From Blastococcus sp. URHD0036 (GTDB taxonomy: Bacteria; Actinomycetota; Actinomycetes; Mycobacteriales; Geodermatophilaceae), in contig NZ_JNIK01000015.1 of NCBI RefSeq assembly GCF_000701365.1, positions 62,001 to 126,000 on the forward strand: 64,000 nt of DNA, in the 5' to 3' direction. Under the pieces are notes generated by a model, which was given only the letters and a program-made list of their open reading frames with translations, did no database searches and was not told where the DNA came from. A program made the position numbers and the translations under genes. Positions 11,516 to 43,914 of this stretch are shown here, in pieces (the stretch's first letter is position 1; every line of letters begins with the position of its first letter).

Positions 11516-14131
11516 TCACGACAGCAGGCCGCGGTCGGCGGCGGCCCGGACCGCCTCGCGGCGGGAGGAGACCCCGAGCTTCGCGTAGATGGACCGGATG
11601 TGGCTCTTCACCGTGTTCACCGACACCGTGAACTCGTCGGCGATCTCGCGGGCGTTCAGCAGCGAGGGCAGCAGGGCCAGGACGGCCAGCTCGCGCTCGC
11701 TCAGCAGGGCGGGCGTCTCCAGGACGACGGCCGCGCCGGCGGCGGCCACCTGCGCGGCGAACGAGCCCCTGCGGGCGGCGGCGGTCTGGCCGGCCAGCAA
11801 CTCCCGCGTACGCGGCCCGGCGAGTGCGAACGGGCGGACGAGGTCCAGCGGCTCGGCCTCGGCGAGGGCCGTCTCGAGCGCGGCCCGGCCGCCGGCCTGC
11901 TCGCCCCGCTGGAGGTCGGCCTCTGCCCGGAGGAGGTGCGCCTCCACCGTCGTCCCGGGCAGGAGCGTCACCGCCCCGGGCTCGAGCACCGGTGCGACGA
12001 TGGCTGCGGCCGCCTCGTACCGTCCGGCGGCGGCCTCCTCCCAGGCGCGGAGGAGCAACGTCTCCCCGGTCGGGCCGACCCGCCCGGCCAGCCAGTCCGC
12101 CACCTGCGCGGCGGCGGCCAGGTTGCCGTTCAGCAGCGTCACCCGGTGCTCCAGCGCCGCCAGCCCGGTGAGCACCGTCGGGGGGACGGGCGCGTCGCCG
12201 AGGGCGGCCCGGGCGGTCCGCAGCTCGACCAGGCCCTCCGTCCGGCGTCCCAGGTCGGCGACGGCGGCACCGTGCACGCCGTGCAGGGTGTACGTCGCCT
12301 CCGGCGGAGCCGACTCCCAGGCGTCGAGCGCGGCCTCGGCCCGCGCGGCGGCCGCCGCGGGAGCCCCGCGCAGCAGGTCGGCGTAGGCCAGCAGCCCGGC
12401 CGGTCCGGCCGTCCAGGCGGAGGGGTGCCGGCCGTCGCGGGTGCCGGCGGCCACGGCATCGGCGGCGGCGGTGGCCATCCCGCGCAGGTCGCCGCGCATC
12501 GTGGCGAGGGTGGCGAGCATCGAGAGGCTCTGCACCTCCAGATAGCCCAGGCCCAGGTCCGCGGCGAGGCCGCGGGCCCGGGTCAGGTGCACCCCGGCGC
12601 GTGCGACGTCGGCGCCGGCCGGGGCGTTGAGCTCCGCGACGCCCTGGCTCAGGCTGAACAGGGCAGCCATGACCGGATCGACGTCCTCGGCCGCGCTGCG
12701 CGGGCGCGGCAGGGACGGGCCGGGGAGGCCCAGGGCGCCGCCGAGGAGCTCCGCGCTCACCCGCAGGGTCTCCAGGGCCGGCCCGGGGGCATCGGGCCAG
12801 GAGCGGCGGGCGTCGGCGAGCTCGGCCGCCGCGGGTGCGAGGGCGCGCTCGTCGAGGTGGGTGATCGCGGCGGTGAGCGCGAGCCACGGGTCGCCCGCGC
12901 GGGCGTCCGGACCGACCGCGGCCAGGGCGCGGCGCAGCGGGCCCAGATCGCCGGCGAGCAGGAGGGTGATCCCGGAGCGGCGGAGCAGCTCCGCGACGAG
13001 GTCCCGGTCCCCGGACTTCTCGGCGTGCCGCAGCGCGTGCACCGGTTCGCCCCGGGCCGACCACCACCGGGCCGCGGTCGCGTGCAGCTCGCGGGCGCGC
13101 CGGGGGTCCTGCCGGGTGAGGTCGGCGACCAGGTACGAGCGCAGCAGCGGGTGGATGCGGTGGTCGCCGCGGGCGGTCCTCTCCACCAGTCCGGTGGAGG
13201 CGTGCACCTCGTCCAGCAGCGACTCCGCCGCGGTCTCGCCGGTGAGCTCCGCGGCCAGCGCCGCCGGCATCGGCGTGCACACGCTGACGGCGCGCAGGAA
13301 GCGCCCGGTCCCCGGGTCCAGGCCGTCGAGGATCTCCCCGGTGAGGTAGTCGGCGACGGTGCGCTCGTCGCCGGAGAAGGAGGCGAGGAAGGCGTCGACG
13401 TCGTCGGTCCGGGAGAGGACCAGCGCGGCCAGGCGCAGTCCGGCCGCCCAGCCGTCGGTCCGCGCGTGCAGCACGGCCACCTGCCGCGGGGTCAGGTCCA
13501 GCCCCGAGGCGGCGAGCAGGGCCGCGGCGTCGTCCCGGCTGAAGCGCAGGGCGTCGGCCCGGACCTCGAACAGCCGCCCCTCCAGCCGCAGCCGGGGCAC
13601 CGAGATCGGCGGGTCGGTGCGGCCGGCGACGACCAGCGAGACGCCGGACGGATCGCGGCGCACCAGTCGCGCGAGGTCGCCCAGCACTCCGGGGTCGGTG
13701 AGCTCGTGCACGTCGTCGAGGACCAGCCGCACCGGGGACGCCAGGTCGTCGAGTGCGTCGGCGAGGTCCTCCACGACGTCGGAGGGGGCAGCGCCGGGCA
13801 GGCGGCCGGCCAGCCGCAGCAGAGCCGGGTCCGCGGCGGCCGGGGGGAGCGTGAGCAGGGCACCCACGACGGCCGACCACAACCGGCGGGGATCGTCGTC
13901 GTCGGAGTCCAGCGAGACCCACGCCGTCGGGAGCCAGTCGCTCTCGCGCACCCAGTCGGCGAGCAGCAGCGTCTTGCCGGAGCCTGCCGGGGCGCTGACC
14001 ACGATCACCTGGTCGGCCGAGGCGGCCTCCAATAGCGTGCGCAGCGCCCGGCGGGGGGTGAACTCGCCGGGTAGTTCCGGGACCGCCGTCTTCCCGGCCG
14101 GTACCCGTGGCGCAGCGGCAGGGCCGCCCAT
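11516..14131 (-). CDS. MalT-type LuxR-family transcriptional regulator 2
   Basis: An 871-residue STAND ATPase regulator. Walker A A-P-A-G-S-G-K-T is at 47-54, a Walker B-like L-V-L-D-D-V-H-E-L near 138, a G-R-T-D-P sensor-like segment near 170, a long TPR-like region, and the C-terminal LuxR helix-turn-helix S-E-R-E-L-A-V-L-A-L-L...NAREIADEFTVSVNTVKSHI. The HTH is more canonical than that of regulator 1. The ATG at 14131 begins M-G-G-P-A and is the first plausible start after the terminator-like hairpin at 14192. It is the middle of three tandem regulators with the same domain order but modest identity, suggesting an old duplication. The inducer is unknown. Confidence 0.92.
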   Translation of the reverse strand: MGGPAAAPRVPAGKTAVPELPGEFTPRRALRTLLEAASADQVIVVSAPAGSGKTLLLADWVRESDWLPTAWVSLDSDDDDPRRLWSAVVGALLTLPPAAADPALLRLAGRLPGAAPSDVVEDLADALDDLASPVRLVLDDVHELTDPGVLGDLARLVRRDPSGVSLVVAGRTDPPISVPRLRLEGRLFEVRADALRFSRDDAAALLAASGLDLTPRQVAVLHARTDGWAAGLRLAALVLSRTDDVDAFLASFSGDERTVADYLTGEILDGLDPGTGRFLRAVSVCTPMPAALAAELTGETAAESLLDEVHASTGLVERTARGDHRIHPLLRSYLVADLTRQDPRRARELHATAARWWSARGEPVHALRHAEKSGDRDLVAELLRRSGITLLLAGDLGPLRRALAAVGPDARAGDPWLALTAAITHLDERALAPAAAELADARRSWPDAPGPALETLRVSAELLGGALGLPGPSLPRPRSAAEDVDPVMAALFSLSQGVAELNAPAGADVARAGVHLTRARGLAADLGLGYLEVQSLSMLATLATMRGDLRGMATAAADAVAAGTRDGRHPSAWTAGPAGLLAYADLLRGAPAAAAARAEAALDAWESAPPEATYTLHGVHGAAVADLGRRTEGLVELRTARAALGDAPVPPTVLTGLAALEHRVTLLNGNLAAAAQVADWLAGRVGPTGETLLLRAWEEAAAGRYEAAAAIVAPVLEPGAVTLLPGTTVEAHLLRAEADLQRGEQAGGRAALETALAEAEPLDLVRPFALAGPRTRELLAGQTAAARRGSFAAQVAAAGAAVVLETPALLSERELAVLALLPSLLNAREIADEFTVSVNTVKSHIRSIYAKLGVSSRREAVRAAADRGLLS

Positions 14132-14191
14132 CCGAGCTCCTCGGCGGTCGTCCCCCGTGGCCGACGTGGCATCCGCCGGCCGGAGGTGCCC

Positions 14192-14210
14192 GGGCCGACG
14201 GGTTCGGCCC
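14192..14210 (-). terminator. hairpin after regulator 3
   Basis: GGGCCGA (14192-14198) and TCGGCCC (14204-14210) form a 7-bp stem with a 5-base loop, 16 bases beyond the stop codon of the regulator ending at 14226. There is no T-run, as is usual in high-GC actinobacteria. Confidence 0.4.
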
Positions 14211-14225
14211 AGGTTGTCACAGGGA

Positions 14226-16796
14226 TCAGGACAGCAGGCCCTGCTCCAGCGCGGTGAGCACGGCGGTCCGCCGGGTGTTCACCCCGAGTTTGCCGTAGAT
14301 CGCCCGCACGTGGCTCTTGATCGTGTTGACCGACACCGCCATGTCCTCGGCGATCTCGCCGAGGTTGCCGAGACCGACCAGATGGGTGAGGACGTCGAGC
14401 TCGCGGTCGCTGAGACCCGGTCCCGGTGCCCGGAGCACCCGCTGGCGCGCCGACAGGCAGCGGAAGGCGAAGGCGGCCGGGTCCCGGGAACCGCCGAGCT
14501 GGTCGACCAGCAGCGCGCGGACGCCCTGCCCGGCGAGGGCGAACGGGCGCAGCAGGTCCAGCGGCTCGGCGTGCGCGAGAGCGGTCTGCAGGCCGCGCCG
14601 CGCCGTCGGCCGGTCGCCGGACCGCAGGGCGCCCCAGACCTCTACCAGCCACGCCTCCACGACCGTGGTCGGCAGGATCTGGAGGAGGCTGCCGTCCAGC
14701 ACCGGGGCCACGGCCGCCCGGGCCGGTCCGGCCGAGCCGGCCGCCGCCATCGTCCAGGCCCTCGTGAGGGCGTGCTCCGCCGTCCCGGCCCCCTCGGCGT
14801 CGAGCCGGCCGGCCGACGTCGCCGCGGCAGCGGCGGAGCCCAGCAGGAGCGCCGCCCGGTGCTCGAGCAGCGCTCCCGCGGCCACCTGCGGGAGGGCGAG
14901 CCGGGTGCGCCCGACCTCGGCCCGGGCCTCCTGGAGCTCGGCCAGCCCCGCGGTCCGGCGGCCCAGGTCGAACAGCGCGCCGCCGCGGGAGCACCGCAGC
15001 GAGAAGCGGATCCCGGGATCGGTGTGCACCGTGTCGATCCGGAGCCCCTCGTCGGCCGCGCGCAGGGCGTGCTGCGGCGCGGCGCGCAGCAGGCAGGCCG
15101 CGGCCAGTGCGGAGTACGCGGTGCCCGTCCACCAGGACTCCTGCCAGCCGTGGGCGGCGGCCGCGGAGACCGCTGCCGCCGCTGCCCCGGCGGCCCGCCC
15201 GGAGTCCCCGGCCACCCAGGCCGCGGTACCGATGAGGGTGAGGCTCTGGACCTCGAGGAACCCGAGGTGCTGGTCGCGTGCGACGGCGAGCGCGCTCTCG
15301 AGGTCGCCGAGCACCACCGCGGACGGAGCCCTCGAGAGGATCCGCGCCGCGCCGCGTCCGGCGCTCACCAGTGCTGCCAGGGCGGGGTCGGTGACCGGGG
15401 TCGCCGGCAGGGACAGGTCCCCGGTCCAGCCGGCGAGCCACTCCGTCGTGGCCCGGAACGAGGCGAGGTCGGCGTCGTCGGGGTGCTCGGCGGCCACCTG
15501 CGCCGCCCGCCGCAGGTGCTCGCGGGCGGTCCGTACGTCCCCGGCGGCGACGGCGAGCTGCGCCGAGACCACCGGCAGCCAGGCATCGGCCGCACCGGTG
15601 CCGTCCAGGGTGGCGACCGCTCCGGCGAGCTCGGCGTGGTCGCCGCGCGCCACGAGCGTGGGCGCCCAGCGACGCAGCAGCGCCGCCATGAGCGCGGGGT
15701 CGGCGGCCTCGGCCGCGTGCCGCAGCGCCAGGAGCGGCTGCCCCTGCCCGGCCCACCAGGAGGCGGCCCGTCCGTGCAGTTCGTCGGCGAGGCCGGGTCC
15801 CTGCCGGGAGAGGTCGGCGGCGAGGTAGCTGCGGGTGAGCTCCTGGACGCGGAACTCGGTGCGGTGCTCGCCGGTGGAGACCACCAGCCCCGTCGTGCGC
15901 TCCAGCGCGCCGAGCACGTCGGCGGCGTCCGGCCGGCCCGACAGCTCGGCGGCCAGCGCCCCGGGCAGCCGGTCGGAGACGCTCGTGCGCCGGAGCAGGT
16001 CGAGCTCGGCGGCGGACAGGTGGGCCAGCACCTCTCCGGCGAGGTAGTCGGCCACGGGGCGGTCGTCCCCGGAGAGGTCGGCGAGGAAGCGGTCGGGATC
16101 GGGGGCGTCCCGCAGCGGCATGGCCGCGAGCCGGATGCCGGCGACCCACCCGTCCGTCCGGTCGTGCAGCACCGCGGTCTGGGCGCAGGTGAGCCGCAGC
16201 CCGCAGGCCCGGGCGAGCGTGGCCGTCTCGTCCAGGGAGAAGCCCAGCTGGGCGCTGCGCACCTCGCAGAGCTGCTGCTCCATCCGCAGCCGGGCAACCG
16301 GCAGCGCCGGGTCCAGCCGGCTGGCCAGGACCAGCCGGAGCCCGGCGGGCCGGTGGCGCAGCAGGAGGTGCAGGCCGTGCACGACCTCGGGGCTGCGCAG
16401 GTGGTGGGCGTCGTCGAGGACGAGGCGGACGGGCCCGTCGAGGTCGGCGAGCGCGTCGAGCAGTTCCAGCACGAAGTCCACGCCGACGCTGGTCCGGGGG
16501 ACGACGAGCCCGTTCACCCGGCCGGTGGCGGGGACCGCGGGGCAGGTGGAGAGCGCGGCCAGCACCGAGGTCCAGAAGTGCCGCGGGTCGTCGTCGTGCT
16601 CGTCCAGGGTCACCCACGCGCAGGCGGGGCCCCCGCGGTGGACCCACTCCGCGAGCACCAGGGTCTTGCCGTAGCCGGGAGGGGCGGAGACCAGCGTGAG
16701 GGCGCGACCCTCGCCGCGGTCCAGGGCGTCCAGCAGCGCCGGGCGCGGCACGTGGTCGTGCGGGAGCCGCGGCACCGTCGTCTTCGACCGCCACAC
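14226..16796 (-). CDS. MalT-type LuxR-family transcriptional regulator 3
   Basis: A ~856-residue STAND ATPase regulator with Walker A A-P-P-G-Y-G-K-T about 40 residues in, a Walker B-like R-L-V-L-D-D-A-H-H, a TPR-like middle, and a C-terminal LuxR helix-turn-helix (NLGEIAEDMAVSVNTIKSHV). The domain begins with K-T-T-V-P-R-L-P, so the GTG at 16796 is preferred; an ATG at 16871 would add 25 low-complexity residues. It lies divergently from the AI-2E family gene. In its HTH and the N-x-R-R/S-S-R-R-x-A-V end it is closer to regulator 2 than to regulator 1. Confidence 0.9.
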   Translation of the reverse strand: MWRSKTTVPRLPHDHVPRPALLDALDRGEGRALTLVSAPPGYGKTLVLAEWVHRGGPACAWVTLDEHDDDPRHFWTSVLAALSTCPAVPATGRVNGLVVPRTSVGVDFVLELLDALADLDGPVRLVLDDAHHLRSPEVVHGLHLLLRHRPAGLRLVLASRLDPALPVARLRMEQQLCEVRSAQLGFSLDETATLARACGLRLTCAQTAVLHDRTDGWVAGIRLAAMPLRDAPDPDRFLADLSGDDRPVADYLAGEVLAHLSAAELDLLRRTSVSDRLPGALAAELSGRPDAADVLGALERTTGLVVSTGEHRTEFRVQELTRSYLAADLSRQGPGLADELHGRAASWWAGQGQPLLALRHAAEAADPALMAALLRRWAPTLVARGDHAELAGAVATLDGTGAADAWLPVVSAQLAVAAGDVRTAREHLRRAAQVAAEHPDDADLASFRATTEWLAGWTGDLSLPATPVTDPALAALVSAGRGAARILSRAPSAVVLGDLESALAVARDQHLGFLEVQSLTLIGTAAWVAGDSGRAAGAAAAAVSAAAAHGWQESWWTGTAYSALAAACLLRAAPQHALRAADEGLRIDTVHTDPGIRFSLRCSRGGALFDLGRRTAGLAELQEARAEVGRTRLALPQVAAGALLEHRAALLLGSAAAAATSAGRLDAEGAGTAEHALTRAWTMAAAGSAGPARAAVAPVLDGSLLQILPTTVVEAWLVEVWGALRSGDRPTARRGLQTALAHAEPLDLLRPFALAGQGVRALLVDQLGGSRDPAAFAFRCLSARQRVLRAPGPGLSDRELDVLTHLVGLGNLGEIAEDMAVSVNTIKSHVRAIYGKLGVNTRRTAVLTALEQGLLS

Positions 16797-39865: not shown

Positions 39866-40219
39866 ATGACCGCAGCGACCGCCATCACCCCCGCCCAGCT
39901 CCCCGCGGTGATCCGCGGCTATCTCGCCGCCCACGAGGCGCACGACACCGACGCCGCGCTCGCCGCCTTCACGCCCACCGCCGTCGTCGTGGACGACGGC
40001 AGTACCCACCGGGGCACCGAGGAGGTCCGCCGCTTCCTGTGGACGGCCGGCGCGCAGTTCACGTACACCACGACCCTCGTCTCGGCCGGGCGTTGCGACG
40101 ACGGGCAGTGGGTCGTCACCAACCGCCTGGAGGGGGACTTCCCGGGCGGCGTCGTCGACCTCCGCTACCGCTTCCGGCTGGACGCCGGTCTGATCGCGGA
40201 GCTCGTCATCGCCCCCTGA
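39866..40219 (+). CDS. SnoaL/NTF2-like domain protein
   Basis: A 117-residue single-domain cone-fold protein: helix V-I-R-G-Y-L-A-A-H-E-A-H-D-T-D-A-A-L, strand F-T-P-T-A-V-V-V-D-D-G, then H-R-G-T-E-E-V and four C-terminal strands ending Y-R-F-R-L-D-A-G-L-I-A-E-L-V-I. The polyketide-cyclase/NTF2-like superfamily binds small hydrophobic ligands or catalyses isomerisation; this one is the presumed target of the adjacent MerR regulator, which suggests a role towards the same compound. Leaderless mRNA likely. Its end overlaps the convergent MFS gene by 14 bases. Confidence 0.85.
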   Translation: MTAATAITPAQLPAVIRGYLAAHEAHDTDAALAAFTPTAVVVDDGSTHRGTEEVRRFLWTAGAQFTYTTTLVSAGRCDDGQWVVTNRLEGDFPGGVVDLRYRFRLDAGLIAELVIAP

Positions 40220-41903
40220 GGTCCGGGCTGCCGGGCGCGTCGGGTGGCGGTTCCGCCTGCCGCTGACCGTCCTCGGTGAGATAGCCGCCGACGACCTGCT
40301 CGGCGGTCGCGGAGGTGGCCGCGAAGCCGGTGACGGCGGCGACGAAGTCGGGCCCGGCGAGGGTGGCCAGCTCGGTGTCCTCGACGGCACGGACGGTCGC
40401 CGTCCGTGGCGCCGAGCGGAGCAGCGCGATCTCGCCGAAGGAGTCGCCGGGCCCCAGCCGGCGGATCTCGCGCCCGTCGTCGAGCACGGCTACGCGACCG
40501 GACCCGACGACGTAGAACAGGTCGCCCGGGTCGCCCTGGGCGAACACGTCGGTGCCCGCCGCGACGCTCGACCGGCCCAGCCGCATCGCCAGGCCCTCGA
40601 TGACCGGGACGGGCAGGAGGCGGAACATGCCGACCCGGCGCAGCAGCACGATCCGGTCCTTCCGGACGGCGATGTCGGCGTCGATCGCCCGGAGCGCCGT
40701 CCAGCGCAGCCCGACCGCCAGCGGCAGGACACAGCCCACGGCGACGAGCGCGCCGGTGTCGCCGAGCCCGGAGAGGACGGCGGGGATCACGAGCGACCCG
40801 AGCGCCAGGGCGAGCGAGAACACCGCCTCCGTCAGGGCCAGGACGCGCGCCAGCGTCCGGTCGGGGACCAGCCGCTGCAGCAGCGTGAACCCGGTGACGT
40901 CGACGATCGCGTTGGCGGCGCCGATGACGGCGAACGCACCGACCGCGACCGGGCTGCCCGTCGCCAGGCCGATGAGGACGATCGGCACCCCCCACATCGC
41001 GATGCCGGCCCCGAACAGGGTGCCCAGACGGGCGCTCCCGGCGGCGCCGATCGAGGCCATCGCCGCGACGAACCCGCCGACCCCGAACGCCGCCCAGAGG
41101 ACCCCGACGCCGGGCCGGCCCAGGTCGGTGACCTCCACGGCGACCACCACGGCGAGCACGGTCAGTGCCCCGCGGACGAGGCACTGGGCGCCGCCGAGCA
41201 CGATCACGTCCAGTGCCCGGGGACGGCGGCGCAGCTCGCGCAGCCCGTCGACGACGTCGGCGACCACACCCGGCCGGCCGGCCGGCTCGGGGTCTGCGGC
41301 GGGGCGCGGCGACTCGAAGCGCAGCCGGGCCGCGAGCAGGCCGGCGACAGCGGCCAGCACGGCCACGGCGGCGAAGGCCACCGCCGGGTCGTACGCCGCG
41401 AGCAGCGCGGCCGCGGCCAGCGGACCGACGAGCGCGGCCACTCCGTCGAGGATGGCCCGGACGGCGTTGACCCCGGCCAGCTCCTCCGGCGTGGTGCACA
41501 GCGTCGGGAAGAGGGCGGCCAGCACCGGCCGGTAGGCGGCGTGGCAGACCGTGGACAGGGTCAGCAGCGCGTACACCGCCGCCGGCGAGGCCACCGCGGC
41601 CGCGGCTCCGGCGGCGGTGGCCGCCCGCAGCGCGCAGGAGACCACCAGCAGCTGCCGGCGCGAGACGCGGTCGGCCAGGGCGCCCAGCCAGGGCAGCGCG
41701 ACCGTGGCCGGCAGCACCCGCAGGAACCCGACCAGGCCCACGCCCGCCGCGCCGTCCTGGTCGAAGGCGTAGACCGTCATCGCGGAGAGGAAGAGGAACT
41801 CACCCGTCCAGGCCGACAGGGACGACAGCTGCGCGAACCGGAGGTTGCGGTTGCGGGTCACCGATGCCCACGCCTCGCGGTAGGAGCCGGGCACGGCGCG
41901 CAC
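40206..41903 (-). CDS. MFS transporter with C-terminal cyclic-nucleotide-binding domain
   Basis: A ~565-residue fusion. The first ~410 residues are a 12-helix major facilitator (N-L-R-F-A-Q-L-S-S-L start, A-D-R-V-S-R-R-Q-L-L motif A in loop 2-3). Residues ~430-545 are a cNMP-binding domain with F-A-Q-G-D-P-G-D-L-F-Y-V-V and the phosphate-binding cassette F-G-E-I-A-L-L-x-S-A-P-R-T-A-T-V, containing the conserved Glu and Arg. Transport activity could be gated by cAMP/cGMP or a related nucleotide. GTG 41903 or 41894 is the start; TAGCGT (41907-41902) 7 bases before 41894 favours the latter as a leaderless start. It is divergent from a second cNMP-domain gene. Confidence 0.88.
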   Translation of the reverse strand: MRAVPGSYREAWASVTRNRNLRFAQLSSLSAWTGEFLFLSAMTVYAFDQDGAAGVGLVGFLRVLPATVALPWLGALADRVSRRQLLVVSCALRAATAAGAAAAVASPAAVYALLTLSTVCHAAYRPVLAALFPTLCTTPEELAGVNAVRAILDGVAALVGPLAAAALLAAYDPAVAFAAVAVLAAVAGLLAARLRFESPRPAADPEPAGRPGVVADVVDGLRELRRRPRALDVIVLGGAQCLVRGALTVLAVVVAVEVTDLGRPGVGVLWAAFGVGGFVAAMASIGAAGSARLGTLFGAGIAMWGVPIVLIGLATGSPVAVGAFAVIGAANAIVDVTGFTLLQRLVPDRTLARVLALTEAVFSLALALGSLVIPAVLSGLGDTGALVAVGCVLPLAVGLRWTALRAIDADIAVRKDRIVLLRRVGMFRLLPVPVIEGLAMRLGRSSVAAGTDVFAQGDPGDLFYVVGSGRVAVLDDGREIRRLGPGDSFGEIALLRSAPRTATVRAVEDTELATLAGPDFVAAVTGFAATSATAEQVVGGYLTEDGQRQAEPPPDAPGSPDLRGR

Positions 41904-42027
41904 GCTAACAGCGCGGACGCCGGACAGGCGCCCCACCAGCGCCGTGGTCGGGCGTACGCGCCGGGAGGTACCGGACGCACGGCCGGTCCCCGTACGTTGG
42001 CCCCACCAGCGAGCGGGAGATTCGACG

Positions 42028-43215
42028 GTGATCCGGTTGGCGCACGACCCGGTGTCGGGCACCCCCGACGCGCGACCCCCGCGCGTGCTGGGCGTCTTCG
42101 CGCACCCCGACGACGAGACGGTCTGCGCCGGCGGCACCCTCGCCAAGTACGCGAGTGCCGGCGCGGAGGTCAGCGTGGTCTCGCTGACCCGGGGCGGCGC
42201 CGGCCAGATCCGCGACGCCGCCGTCGCCACCCGCGCCACGCTGTGCGCCGTCCGGGAGGGCGAGCTCGACGCGGCCGGCAAGGAGCTCGGACTCACCACG
42301 GTGCGGTGCCTCGACCACCCCGACGGCGGCCTGCACCGGATCGATCCGGGGGTCCTGTTCGAGCTGGCGGCGGAGCTGCTCGACGAGTTCGACCCCGACG
42401 TGGTCATCACGTTCGGGCCCGACGGCTTCTCCAGCCACCCCGACCACGTGGCCGTGGGCGCGGCGGTGACCGCGGCGTGCTTCGCCCGGCGGGAGACCTC
42501 GCCGGTCCGGCTGTTCCACTGCCACCTGCCGCGGAGCCGGATGCTGCTGCGGGACCGGCTGGCCGGGTGGGTCGTCGAGCTGACCACCCGCTTCAAGGGC
42601 ACCAAGGACTTCGTCCGCGCCCTGTCGGTGTTCTCCCGCGAGACGACGGCGCTCGGGTACGCGGCCGACTTCGTCAGCGTCGAGTGGTTCCCCGCCGGCT
42701 CCTACCTCGTCGAGCAGGGCGAGGAGGCGACGTCGATGTACTTCCTCCTCTCCGGCGAGGTCGAGATCCGGCGGGAGGGCGAGGACGGGCAGGTGCGCGT
42801 GGTCGACCGGTCCGGGCCCGGGGAGTTCATCGGCGAGGCGGGCATCGCCACCGGCCGGCCGCGCAACGCGCACGTCGTCGCCCTGGACGACGTCACCAGC
42901 CTGACGTTCCTGGCCTCCGAGCCGATCACCGTCGACCGGCACCGGGACGAACCCGGACCGCTGCTGACCAGGGCCCTCGCCTCCGGCGACCTGATCGACG
43001 CCCGGGTGAGCGCCTGCATCGACGTCACCGACTTCGTCGGCGCGAAGATCCGCGCCACGGCCGCGCACCGCTCGCAGTACCCGATCGACCCGGCGATGTT
43101 CCCCGAGTCGATCCTCCGGGAGATGTTCGGCGTCGAGTACTTCGTCCAGGTCCTGCCGGAGCGGGAACTGGACACGTCACTCCTGCGCGAGGGGTCCTCA
43201 GCCCGCGGCGAGTGA
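42028..43215 (+). CDS. PIG-L deacetylase with cyclic-nucleotide-binding domain inserted
   Basis: A 395-residue fusion. Residues ~20-215 form a PIG-L/MshB-like N-deacetylase: A-H-P-D-D-E at 25-30 (zinc ligands His26, Asp29) and H-P-D-H at 137-140, the third metal ligand. Residues ~220-300 form a cNMP-binding domain with E-Q-G-E-E-A-T-S-M-Y-F-L-L-S-G-E-V and the cassette G-E-A-G-I-A-T-G-R-P-R-N-A. The chain then returns to a PIG-L-like tail (V-T-D-F-V-G-A-K-I-R-A-T-A-A-H-R-S-Q; F-P-E-S-I-L-R-E-M-F-G-V-E-Y-F). The substrate, perhaps an N-acetylglucosaminyl compound, is unknown. GTG 42028 follows GCGGGAG; TACGTT (41993-41998) may be the -10. Confidence 0.88.
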   Translation: MIRLAHDPVSGTPDARPPRVLGVFAHPDDETVCAGGTLAKYASAGAEVSVVSLTRGGAGQIRDAAVATRATLCAVREGELDAAGKELGLTTVRCLDHPDGGLHRIDPGVLFELAAELLDEFDPDVVITFGPDGFSSHPDHVAVGAAVTAACFARRETSPVRLFHCHLPRSRMLLRDRLAGWVVELTTRFKGTKDFVRALSVFSRETTALGYAADFVSVEWFPAGSYLVEQGEEATSMYFLLSGEVEIRREGEDGQVRVVDRSGPGEFIGEAGIATGRPRNAHVVALDDVTSLTFLASEPITVDRHRDEPGPLLTRALASGDLIDARVSACIDVTDFVGAKIRATAAHRSQYPIDPAMFPESILREMFGVEYFVQVLPERELDTSLLREGSSARGE

Positions 43216-43914
43216 CCGGGCGCGGCGGCGCGGGATCACGTGGGGGAGACCCCGGCCGACCATGTCGAGGGTCGCGCCGATGCGCACGAGGAACGACGGC
43301 TCCGAGGCCGGGGCGAGCGGTGCGGCGATGTCCTCGACGTCGACGTAGAAGGTCTGCACGGGTCCGATGCCCTCGAGGTCCTGGGCGATCTCGTGGATGG
43401 CCAGCTCGGCGGAGGCGGCCCCGCCGTTGCGGAACAGGTCGTCGGTGACCAGGAGGTACTCCGGCACCGTGACCGGGTTCTTGAGCATGCGGTGCACGTA
43501 GATGACGTCCATGCCGACGAGCTTCTTCCGGCGGCGGATCGTCTGGGTCGCGACGTCCCCGACGTGCGCGACGAACTTCAGCTTCAGGCCGCTGGTCTTC
43601 GTGCAGCTCCCGCAGGGGCACATGTTGAGCTCGATCAGCCGGCGCTGGTCGTGGAAGGCCCGGTGCATCGCGACGGCCGCCCGCGTGACGGCGGACAGTG
43701 TCGCCGCGCCGTCCAGCCCCTCGGCGTCGCGGGACAGGAAGGCGGCGTCGCCCTCGATCTCGATCAGCTCGAAGCCGCGCGCCGCGCCGACCACCTTGTC
43801 GAGCAGGCGCCGCGTCGCCGCCTCCGCGTGGCCGAGCATGCTGCGGTGGAACTGCATGTACTCGGTGTAGCCGCCGATGTCGGCGATCAGCAGCACCGCA
43901 CGCCGGGTCGCCAT
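43198..43914 (-). CDS. DUF2652 protein with class III cyclase-like features
   Basis: A 238-residue protein of the DUF2652 family. The start L-L-I-A-D12-I-G-G-Y-T and later I-E-G-D56-A-A-F are the two metal-aspartate positions of class III adenylate/guanylate cyclases, and V-A-H-V-G-D-V matches the strand after them, so a nucleotide cyclase-like fold is probable. A C-P-C-G-S-C cluster near residue 99 is unusual for cyclases and might bind metal or sense redox. The substrate-specifying and transition-state residues are not clearly conserved, so activity is open. It overlaps the convergent PIG-L/cNMP gene by 18 bases. Confidence 0.82.
   Translation of the reverse strand: MATRRAVLLIADIGGYTEYMQFHRSMLGHAEAATRRLLDKVVGAARGFELIEIEGDAAFLSRDAEGLDGAATLSAVTRAAVAMHRAFHDQRRLIELNMCPCGSCTKTSGLKLKFVAHVGDVATQTIRRRKKLVGMDVIYVHRMLKNPVTVPEYLLVTDDLFRNGGAASAELAIHEIAQDLEGIGPVQTFYVDVEDIAAPLAPASEPSFLVRIGATLDMVGRGLPHVIPRRRARSLAAG

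Follow-up and report, generated by a model that had tools for sequence, protein, structure and literature searches.

Cyclases coupled to effectors with a cyclic nucleotide monophosphate (cNMP) binding domain are already known in bacteria, from the XC_0250/XC_0249 pair of Xanthomonas (PMC3770947) and from the Pycsar systems (PMC11224242). In the former, a class III cyclic GMP (cGMP) cyclase gene is linked to the gene of a cNMP effector, as in the locus described here, but that effector, XC_0249, is a GGDEF enzyme and the abstract does not call the cyclase XC_0250 a DUF2652 protein. Pycsar joins pyrimidine cyclases to TIR effectors with a cyclic nucleotide-binding domain (CNBD), a logic it has in common with our locus, where however the DUF2652 protein matches no PADLOC model. 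DUF2652 itself was proposed as a class III cyclase-like family by Ramakrishnan et al. 2016 (PMC4886424), so that the assignment made below agrees with theirs and is not a new idea. Fusions of major facilitator superfamily (MFS) transporters to a CNBD have the same architecture as the transporter reported here, and the passages on them in PMC10710835 name no cyclase partner, unlike the DUF2652-paired pump of our locus. Here we analyse a stretch of 64,000 nucleotides from the 5.18 Mb genome of Blastococcus sp. URHD0036, called the window below (G000:C14:62001-126000), in which an MFS transporter and a PIG-L deacetylase, each with a cNMP domain, and a DUF2652 protein are encoded side by side. On balance we think it probable that the three form a self-contained circuit, in which a locally made cyclic nucleotide gates the MFS pump and the PIG-L amidase/deacetylase.

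The MFS gene (40206..41936, minus strand; Pfam MFS_1 at E 3.4e-32 and cNMP_binding at E 2.2e-20) carries its cNMP domain at the C-terminus and is divergent from the PIG-L/LmbE deacetylase gene (42028..43215, plus strand; PIG-L at E 1.9e-31 and cNMP at E 2e-20), in which the cNMP domain is nested. With an MFS start at 41936 the intergenic region is 91 bp (41937..42027), and the GTG start of the PIG-L gene has GGGAG upstream. The DUF2652 gene (43198..43914, minus strand; Pfam at E 2.5e-40) is convergent with the PIG-L gene, their 3' ends overlapping by 18 bp, and its product has the class III nucleotidyl cyclase fold according to an AlphaFold2 model and VIA-align. A preliminary description of this DNA had read the three genes as a cyclic-nucleotide module with a recognisable phosphate-binding cassette in each cNMP domain. 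The genes were indeed found where it had placed them, Pfam confirmed the domains, and the cassettes are FGEIALLRSAPRTATV in the MFS protein and IGEAGIATGRPRNAHV in the PIG-L protein. A cyclic-nucleotide module is still the best reading, given the cyclase fold and metal aspartates of DUF2652 and the cassette Glu and Arg of both sensors. A SnoaL gene (39866-40219; 14 bp overlap with the MFS stop) was considered as a part of the module and rejected, as it is not common to nine relative stretches; antisense open reading frames in the 75% GC window were discarded.

The association of the three genes is more than chance. We searched 112 genomes of the same family, Geodermatophilaceae, counting MFS-cNMP proteins at E <1e-100. 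DUF2652 was present in 21 genomes, a close MFS-cNMP protein in 20, all of them among these 21, and the PIG-L protein with a cNMP domain (PIG-L::cNMP) in 11, all among the 20; the hypergeometric p-values, which ignore kinship, are 3e-21 for MFS-cNMP and 7e-10 for PIG-L::cNMP. The sole DUF2652 genome lacking the pump, G016, has the distant Lys-Glu type discussed below. Three weaker MFS matches (G117, G011 and G018; E 1e-41 to 1e-66; 31-36% identity) come from genomes without DUF2652 and were counted as other MFS-cNMP-like proteins. In 18 of the 20 genomes (not in G022 and G130) the pump gene neighbours DUF2652 directly or is separated from it by PIG-L alone. Of the 11 family genomes with PIG-L::cNMP, 7 have the complete trio in one place, and 9 of the 20 genomes with the pair lack PIG-L::cNMP. 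The core is hence DUF2652 plus MFS-cNMP, and PIG-L::cNMP is optional.

The same was seen in a second order, where 293 genomes were searched with a Kribbella genome as centre. DUF2652 occurred in 20 of these and PIG-L::cNMP in 5, all within the 20 (p 9e-7), while an MFS-cNMP gene stood at the DUF2652 match in 19; the exception, G843, is of the Lys-Glu type and has its match on two small contigs. Among the 19, G711 and G759 have a DUF2652 match that is either incomplete or distributed over more than one frame; a split (L219) or partial (L222) DUF2652 was seen next to an MFS-cNMP gene whose own frame is unbroken. Conservation of the block in relatives, which the preliminary description had named as a check, is therefore borne out in one respect, as neither in the family nor in the second order was PIG-L::cNMP or the close MFS-cNMP seen without DUF2652; the distribution of the block is patchy, though, and G001 and G002, two other genomes of the same genus in the sample, have none of the three genes.

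The DUF2652 protein (PF10851) scores 137.6 bits against a gathering cut-off of 22.1. Its AlphaFold2 model, built on 49 sequences, has a predicted local distance difference test score (pLDDT) of 86.2, and Foldseek ranks the adenylyl cyclase CyaC first (E 2.9e-10). VIA-align gave Z 20.1 against CyaC 1wc1 (root-mean-square deviation 2.5 over 184 aligned residues) and Z 19.5 against the guanylyl cyclase Cya2 2w01. By sequence, the PDB gave a single weak cyclase match (E 0.54), and a comparison of profile A3 with three ordinary cyclase domains an alignment of 68 columns only, on the N-terminal side, at probability 51.5. The preliminary description held that both metal aspartates of class III cyclases are kept, and this is so: D12 (43879-43881, minus strand) and D56 (43747..43749, minus strand) are found in 49 of 49 aligned sequences. 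The transition-state Arg, R142, is likewise kept in 49/49, its position being taken from PMC4886424 and from motif spacing. Fold, metal aspartates and transition-state Arg thus agree with class III.

Family, fold, metal aspartates and the replacement of the transition-state Asn by Ile are all the same as in the DUF2652 of Ramakrishnan et al. (PMC4886424). The strict pairing with MFS-cNMP and the third member PIG-L::cNMP set the present system apart, and the main text of that paper mentions none of major facilitator, transporter, PIG-L, Geodermatophil, Blastococcus and Nocardioid. A CxCxxC motif (C99, C101 and C104; 43603..43620, minus strand) is invariant too, in 49/49 sequences and in 12/12 of a broader set. 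Two distant DUF2652 members, L063 and L064, continue by eye into a methyltransferase-like stretch.

At the two positions that recognise the base, the protein has E52 (43759..43761, minus strand), where adenylyl cyclases have Lys (PMC4886424, PMC4215837), and K131 (43522..43524, minus strand), where they have Asp and the mycobacterial DUF2652 proteins Glu (PMC4886424). Glu at the first position, seen in 34 of the 49 sequences, agrees with the guanylyl cyclase rule quoted from PMC4215837. Lys at the second is outside the list of Cys, Ser, Thr, His, Ala and Gly given there, hence we do not claim guanylyl cyclase membership. Ramakrishnan et al. reported Lys-Glu in mycobacterial DUF2652 and Glu-Lys/Arg in Bacteroidetes, the latter read as guanylate-cyclase-like (PMC4886424); here Glu-Lys is found in Actinomycetota. 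We suggest that the Glu-Lys pair favours GTP and that a guanine-type product, cGMP, is likelier than an adenine-type one, since Glu would accept from guanine N1-H and N2-H and Lys would donate to O6. The swap of donor and acceptor would fit a change from adenine to guanine, and as the edge of uracil is similar, UTP is a possible substrate too. It is conceivable, albeit doubtful, that the locus is a dedicated system of Actinomycetota apart from cyclic AMP (cAMP), in which the charge-swapped DUF2652 makes cGMP (or cUMP) only for the linked efflux-type pump and amidase, which this one messenger would gate directly, with CxCxxC as the input and no transcription factor involved.

A scan of named relatives, in which 80 loci were kept of at least 408 relatives, related the base pair to gene context. 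At 47 of the 80 DUF2652 loci the fetched stretch includes a gene with a cNMP domain; these 47 come from Geodermatophilaceae, Nocardioidaceae, Kribbellaceae, Microbacteriaceae, Propionibacteriaceae, Cellulomonadaceae, Intrasporangiaceae and Nocardiaceae and from Thermoleophilia and Frankiales metagenome bins. With Glu at the first position, 46 loci have such a gene and 3 do not (L107, L136 and L137, all <9 kb); with Lys, none has it and 29 do not, these being from mycobacteria, myxobacteria and one Burkholderiales bin. Two loci stand outside this table, L123 (first position not read, cNMP present) and L141 (Gly/Thr, cNMP absent). In 47 whole genomes behind these loci, PIG-L::cNMP is nearly full-length in 9 of 36 with the Glu type and in 0 of 11 with the Lys type. 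One of these 11, G587, the genome behind a Mycobacterium gastri locus and with a DUF2652 of the Lys-Glu type, has a partial PIG-L::cNMP match (L185, G587:C122:35214-35951; model 5-244) containing two stop codons.

Both cNMP domains of the window keep the cassette Glu and Arg. Across homologues the MFS cassette reads FGE(I/V)ALL....RTA(T/S/A)(V/I), and that of PIG-L is mostly GE.G(I/V)AT..PRNAHV, with exceptions in L097, L099, L121, L123 and L128, among which Arg is replaced by Ser in L123 and Glu by Gln in L097. The Thr that follows the cassette Arg was tried as a sign of cGMP and dropped, since the Arg-Ser of Clr takes cAMP and cGMP alike (PMC10127613). In XC_0249 and PycTIR the base selector in the C-helix is Glu and Asn, respectively (PMC11224242).

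From these observations we propose that DUF2652 would work as a soluble class III cyclase, probably as a homodimer, with a 3',5'-cyclic nucleotide as its product, and that the MFS transporter would be switched by this nucleotide through its cytosolic C-terminal cNMP domain. In a subset of genomes, including the present one, the PIG-L amidase/deacetylase would be switched by the same signal through its nested cNMP domain. What the data show is homology, fold, conservation of the metal and cassette residues, and genes that co-occur strictly and are linked time and again; the activity of DUF2652, and its product as the ligand of both sensors, are inferred. Further, we speculate that the input might be the CxCxxC motif, sensing a metal or a thiol/redox state, and, most tentatively, that the transporter may export a small molecule which the PIG-L enzyme deacylates.

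Several points weigh against this circuit. The transition-state Asn is Ile in 48 of 49 DUF2652 sequences and Val in the remaining one, a departure from class III, so that activity is not assured. The genome has three ordinary class III cyclase domains (PF00211), thus cAMP from elsewhere could be the sensor ligand, and the cassettes do not decide the ligand's identity, given the Arg-Ser of Clr. The C-helix base selector was sought in the cNMP domains and could not be placed. The predicted structure of the PIG-L insertion, a check suggested by the preliminary description, has no C-terminal lid helix between the strand at 289-295 and residue 314, in a part of low confidence (pLDDT <50 at 298-311). 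In G005 and G054 a different contig carries PIG-L, as it does the pump in G022 and G130, and a Glu-type DUF2652 stands without MFS-cNMP in the fetched stretch at L107, L121 (14.9 kb), L136 and L137 (the others <9 kb). As for the Glu/Lys contrast, of the 29 stretches of the Lys type 11 fall short of 16 kb (the shortest has 3.1 kb) and 18 are >=16 kb. Further, the Glu-type DUF2652 proteins form one clade (98/93); the 46/3/0/29 table hence amounts to a single evolutionary contrast, and a Fisher p from it has no weight as replication. Nor is the contrast absolute, as the cNMP neighbours Rv2564 and Rv2565 are listed for M. tuberculosis Rv2561 (PMC4886424), which the 80-locus scan did not sample.

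Some of these points could be accommodated if DUF2652 were a dead cyclase fold, a nucleotide- or metal-binding protein that controls the other two through contact, with the sensors reading cAMP from the ordinary cyclases. This would explain the replacement of Asn throughout and give a role to the three PF00211 domains; the opposed Glu and Lys could then be a salt bridge filling the base pocket, and it should be noted that the published cyclase assignment of DUF2652 is computational and calls for experiments (PMC4886424). We nevertheless regard a dead cyclase as unlikely, for the metal Asp pair and the Arg, which a dead enzyme would not need, are kept in 49/49 sequences. Rv1900c functions with His in place of that Asn, which is hence not strictly required (PMC4886424), and sensing of cAMP alone leaves unexplained that the close MFS-cNMP is found only in DUF2652 genomes.

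The arrangement of the genes also bears on the circuit of local cyclase, pump and amidase. At the 80 loci, MFS-cNMP is in one open frame at 41 and PIG-L::cNMP at 14, and at least two of the three genes are together at 46. By gene set, order and strand these 46 fall into 13 arrangements, some of which differ only through a gene cut off or missed (L092, L097). The commonest is a tandem of MFS then DUF2652 (27 loci), and pump and DUF2652 are found in all four mutual orientations. That linkage is kept through shuffled order and strand argues for selection. Pairwise distances are correlated between DUF2652 and MFS (r 0.68, 41 loci, 0/2000 permutations as high), between DUF2652 and PIG-L (r 0.44, 14 loci, p 0.02) and between MFS and PIG-L (r 0.36, 11 loci, 0/2000 permutations). 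The flanks differ between most carriers compared, being common to G022:C3 and G054:C10, and the DUF2652 tree mixes families, which indicates that the cassette moves. For PIG-L::cNMP there was no plasmid match at 1e-30. DUF2652 was found in two alphaproteobacterial plasmid records, and in the one inspected no neighbour is annotated as cyclic-nucleotide-binding.

Such horizontal spread, together with the 9 of 20 family genomes that have the pair and no PIG-L::cNMP, would be expected if the genes merely travelled as a cassette with separate functions. This passive co-inheritance seems rather improbable to us, as the genes stay together despite changed order and strand, G005 and G054 hold the pair even with PIG-L on a separate contig, both partners carry a cNMP domain, and some loci have a third cNMP gene alongside. 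An anti-phage system of the Pycsar kind, with a patchy, horizontally moved cyclase and cNMP effectors, would share the cyclase/CNBD-effector logic (PMC11224242), the patchy presence in varied contexts, the mixing of families in the tree and the match of both cNMP domains to PycTIR profiles (E 3e-10, PADLOC models), but it is highly improbable, since that match is due solely to the shared cNMP domain, a transporter and a deacetylase stand in the place of TIR effectors, and Pycsar membership itself is ruled out by DUF2652 having no match to the PycC model, nor to any PADLOC family, at E <=0.1.

The third cNMP gene was seen as a small gene which, together with a PALP gene of the cysteine-synthase kind, adjoins PIG-L::cNMP at L092, L108, L110 (9982-11878) and L123; at these loci no other Pfam domain was found for it in the frames scanned. 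At L093 the small cNMP gene is present and no PALP was found. In G122, which is without PIG-L::cNMP, a similar small cNMP stretch (L223 6578-6811) lies on the opposite strand between DUF2652 and the pump. Outside the window, the set of cNMP proteins around DUF2652 thus exceeds two.

The PIG-L protein has its Pfam PIG-L match at residues 23-151 and its cNMP match at residues 219-293, which is 42682..42906 on the plus strand (G000:C14:104682-104906). The HPDDE metal/base motif (H26-E30, 42103..42117, plus strand) is invariant in 15/15 sequences, and in the HPDH motif (H137-H140, 42436..42447, plus strand) H137, D139 and H140 are kept in 15/15 and P138 nearly so. Foldseek matched the fold to MshB 1q74 at E 7.2e-12, from a model with pLDDT 71 overall and 61-94 per ten-residue block at 21-160. 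Past the cNMP domain lies a tail with IDVTDF..K..A..AHRSQ and EYF (43006..43158, plus strand; tail profile A5), of which R348, Q350, E370 and F372 are invariant in the PIG-L::cNMP alignment. Searched against all PDB sequences, the tail profile of 15 sequences gave 7 matches at E <=10, the best 6 of which are LmbE/PIG-L deacetylases, hit past their catalytic core (E 0.013-0.8). Since 6 of the 7 fall in one family, though each is weak alone, we take the tail as PIG-L-type. Against this, the profile scored <=3.9 bits on four PIG-L frames free of cNMP, and a pairwise alignment of the tail to MshB was not significant (i-Evalue 3500). The cNMP domain thus appears nested within the PIG-L protein and not appended to it. 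Motifs, fold and a C-terminal element of its own place the protein with PIG-L/LmbE and are common with MshB, BshB and Mca (PMC4101496), from which the nested cNMP domain sets it apart. Identity with any of these was rejected, with 98 bits for BshB2, 80 for MshB, 70 for BshB1 and 67 for Mca, below the NCBIfam cut-offs of 195, 224, 183 and 277.

For the MFS gene, the start in the list of open reading frames (TTG, 42605) is too far upstream, as most homologues align from residue 3-21 of the 41936 start; 41894, 41903 and 41936 are candidates. Its cNMP_binding match covers residues 457-533 (40338..40568, minus strand; G000:C14:102338-102568). Homologues in 15 other family genomes share 77-85% identity with it, those in 4 further ones 43-45%, and the match to the G123 pump stops at residue 472, short of most of the cNMP domain. 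The nearest transporter families are the 2A0121 H+ antiporter and EntS. Another MFS-cNMP gene of the Blastococcus genome, with 36% identity to this one, lies at L169 (G000:C13:425500-440550; 11715-14584), divergent from a frame that likewise passes the Pfam cut-off for a cNMP domain and about 10 kb from an ordinary PF00211 cyclase domain.

That no combination of these three types was known, as the preliminary description had it, is partly so. We found no report of the PIG-L::cNMP fusion or of the three-part association in the open-licence PubMed Central literature; a cyclase-like DUF2652 with cNMP neighbours in M. tuberculosis (PMC4886424) and MFS-cNMP fusions, on the other hand, are on record. 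The role of cGMP in bacteria is described as poorly understood (PMC3770947). For a cyclic mononucleotide to gate a transporter or a deacetylase directly would, if true, be an unusual output. The module is compact, with one small soluble cyclase candidate from a family without assigned function and two separable sensor domains, and the partners that it brings to light suggest hypotheses for DUF2652 proteins at large.

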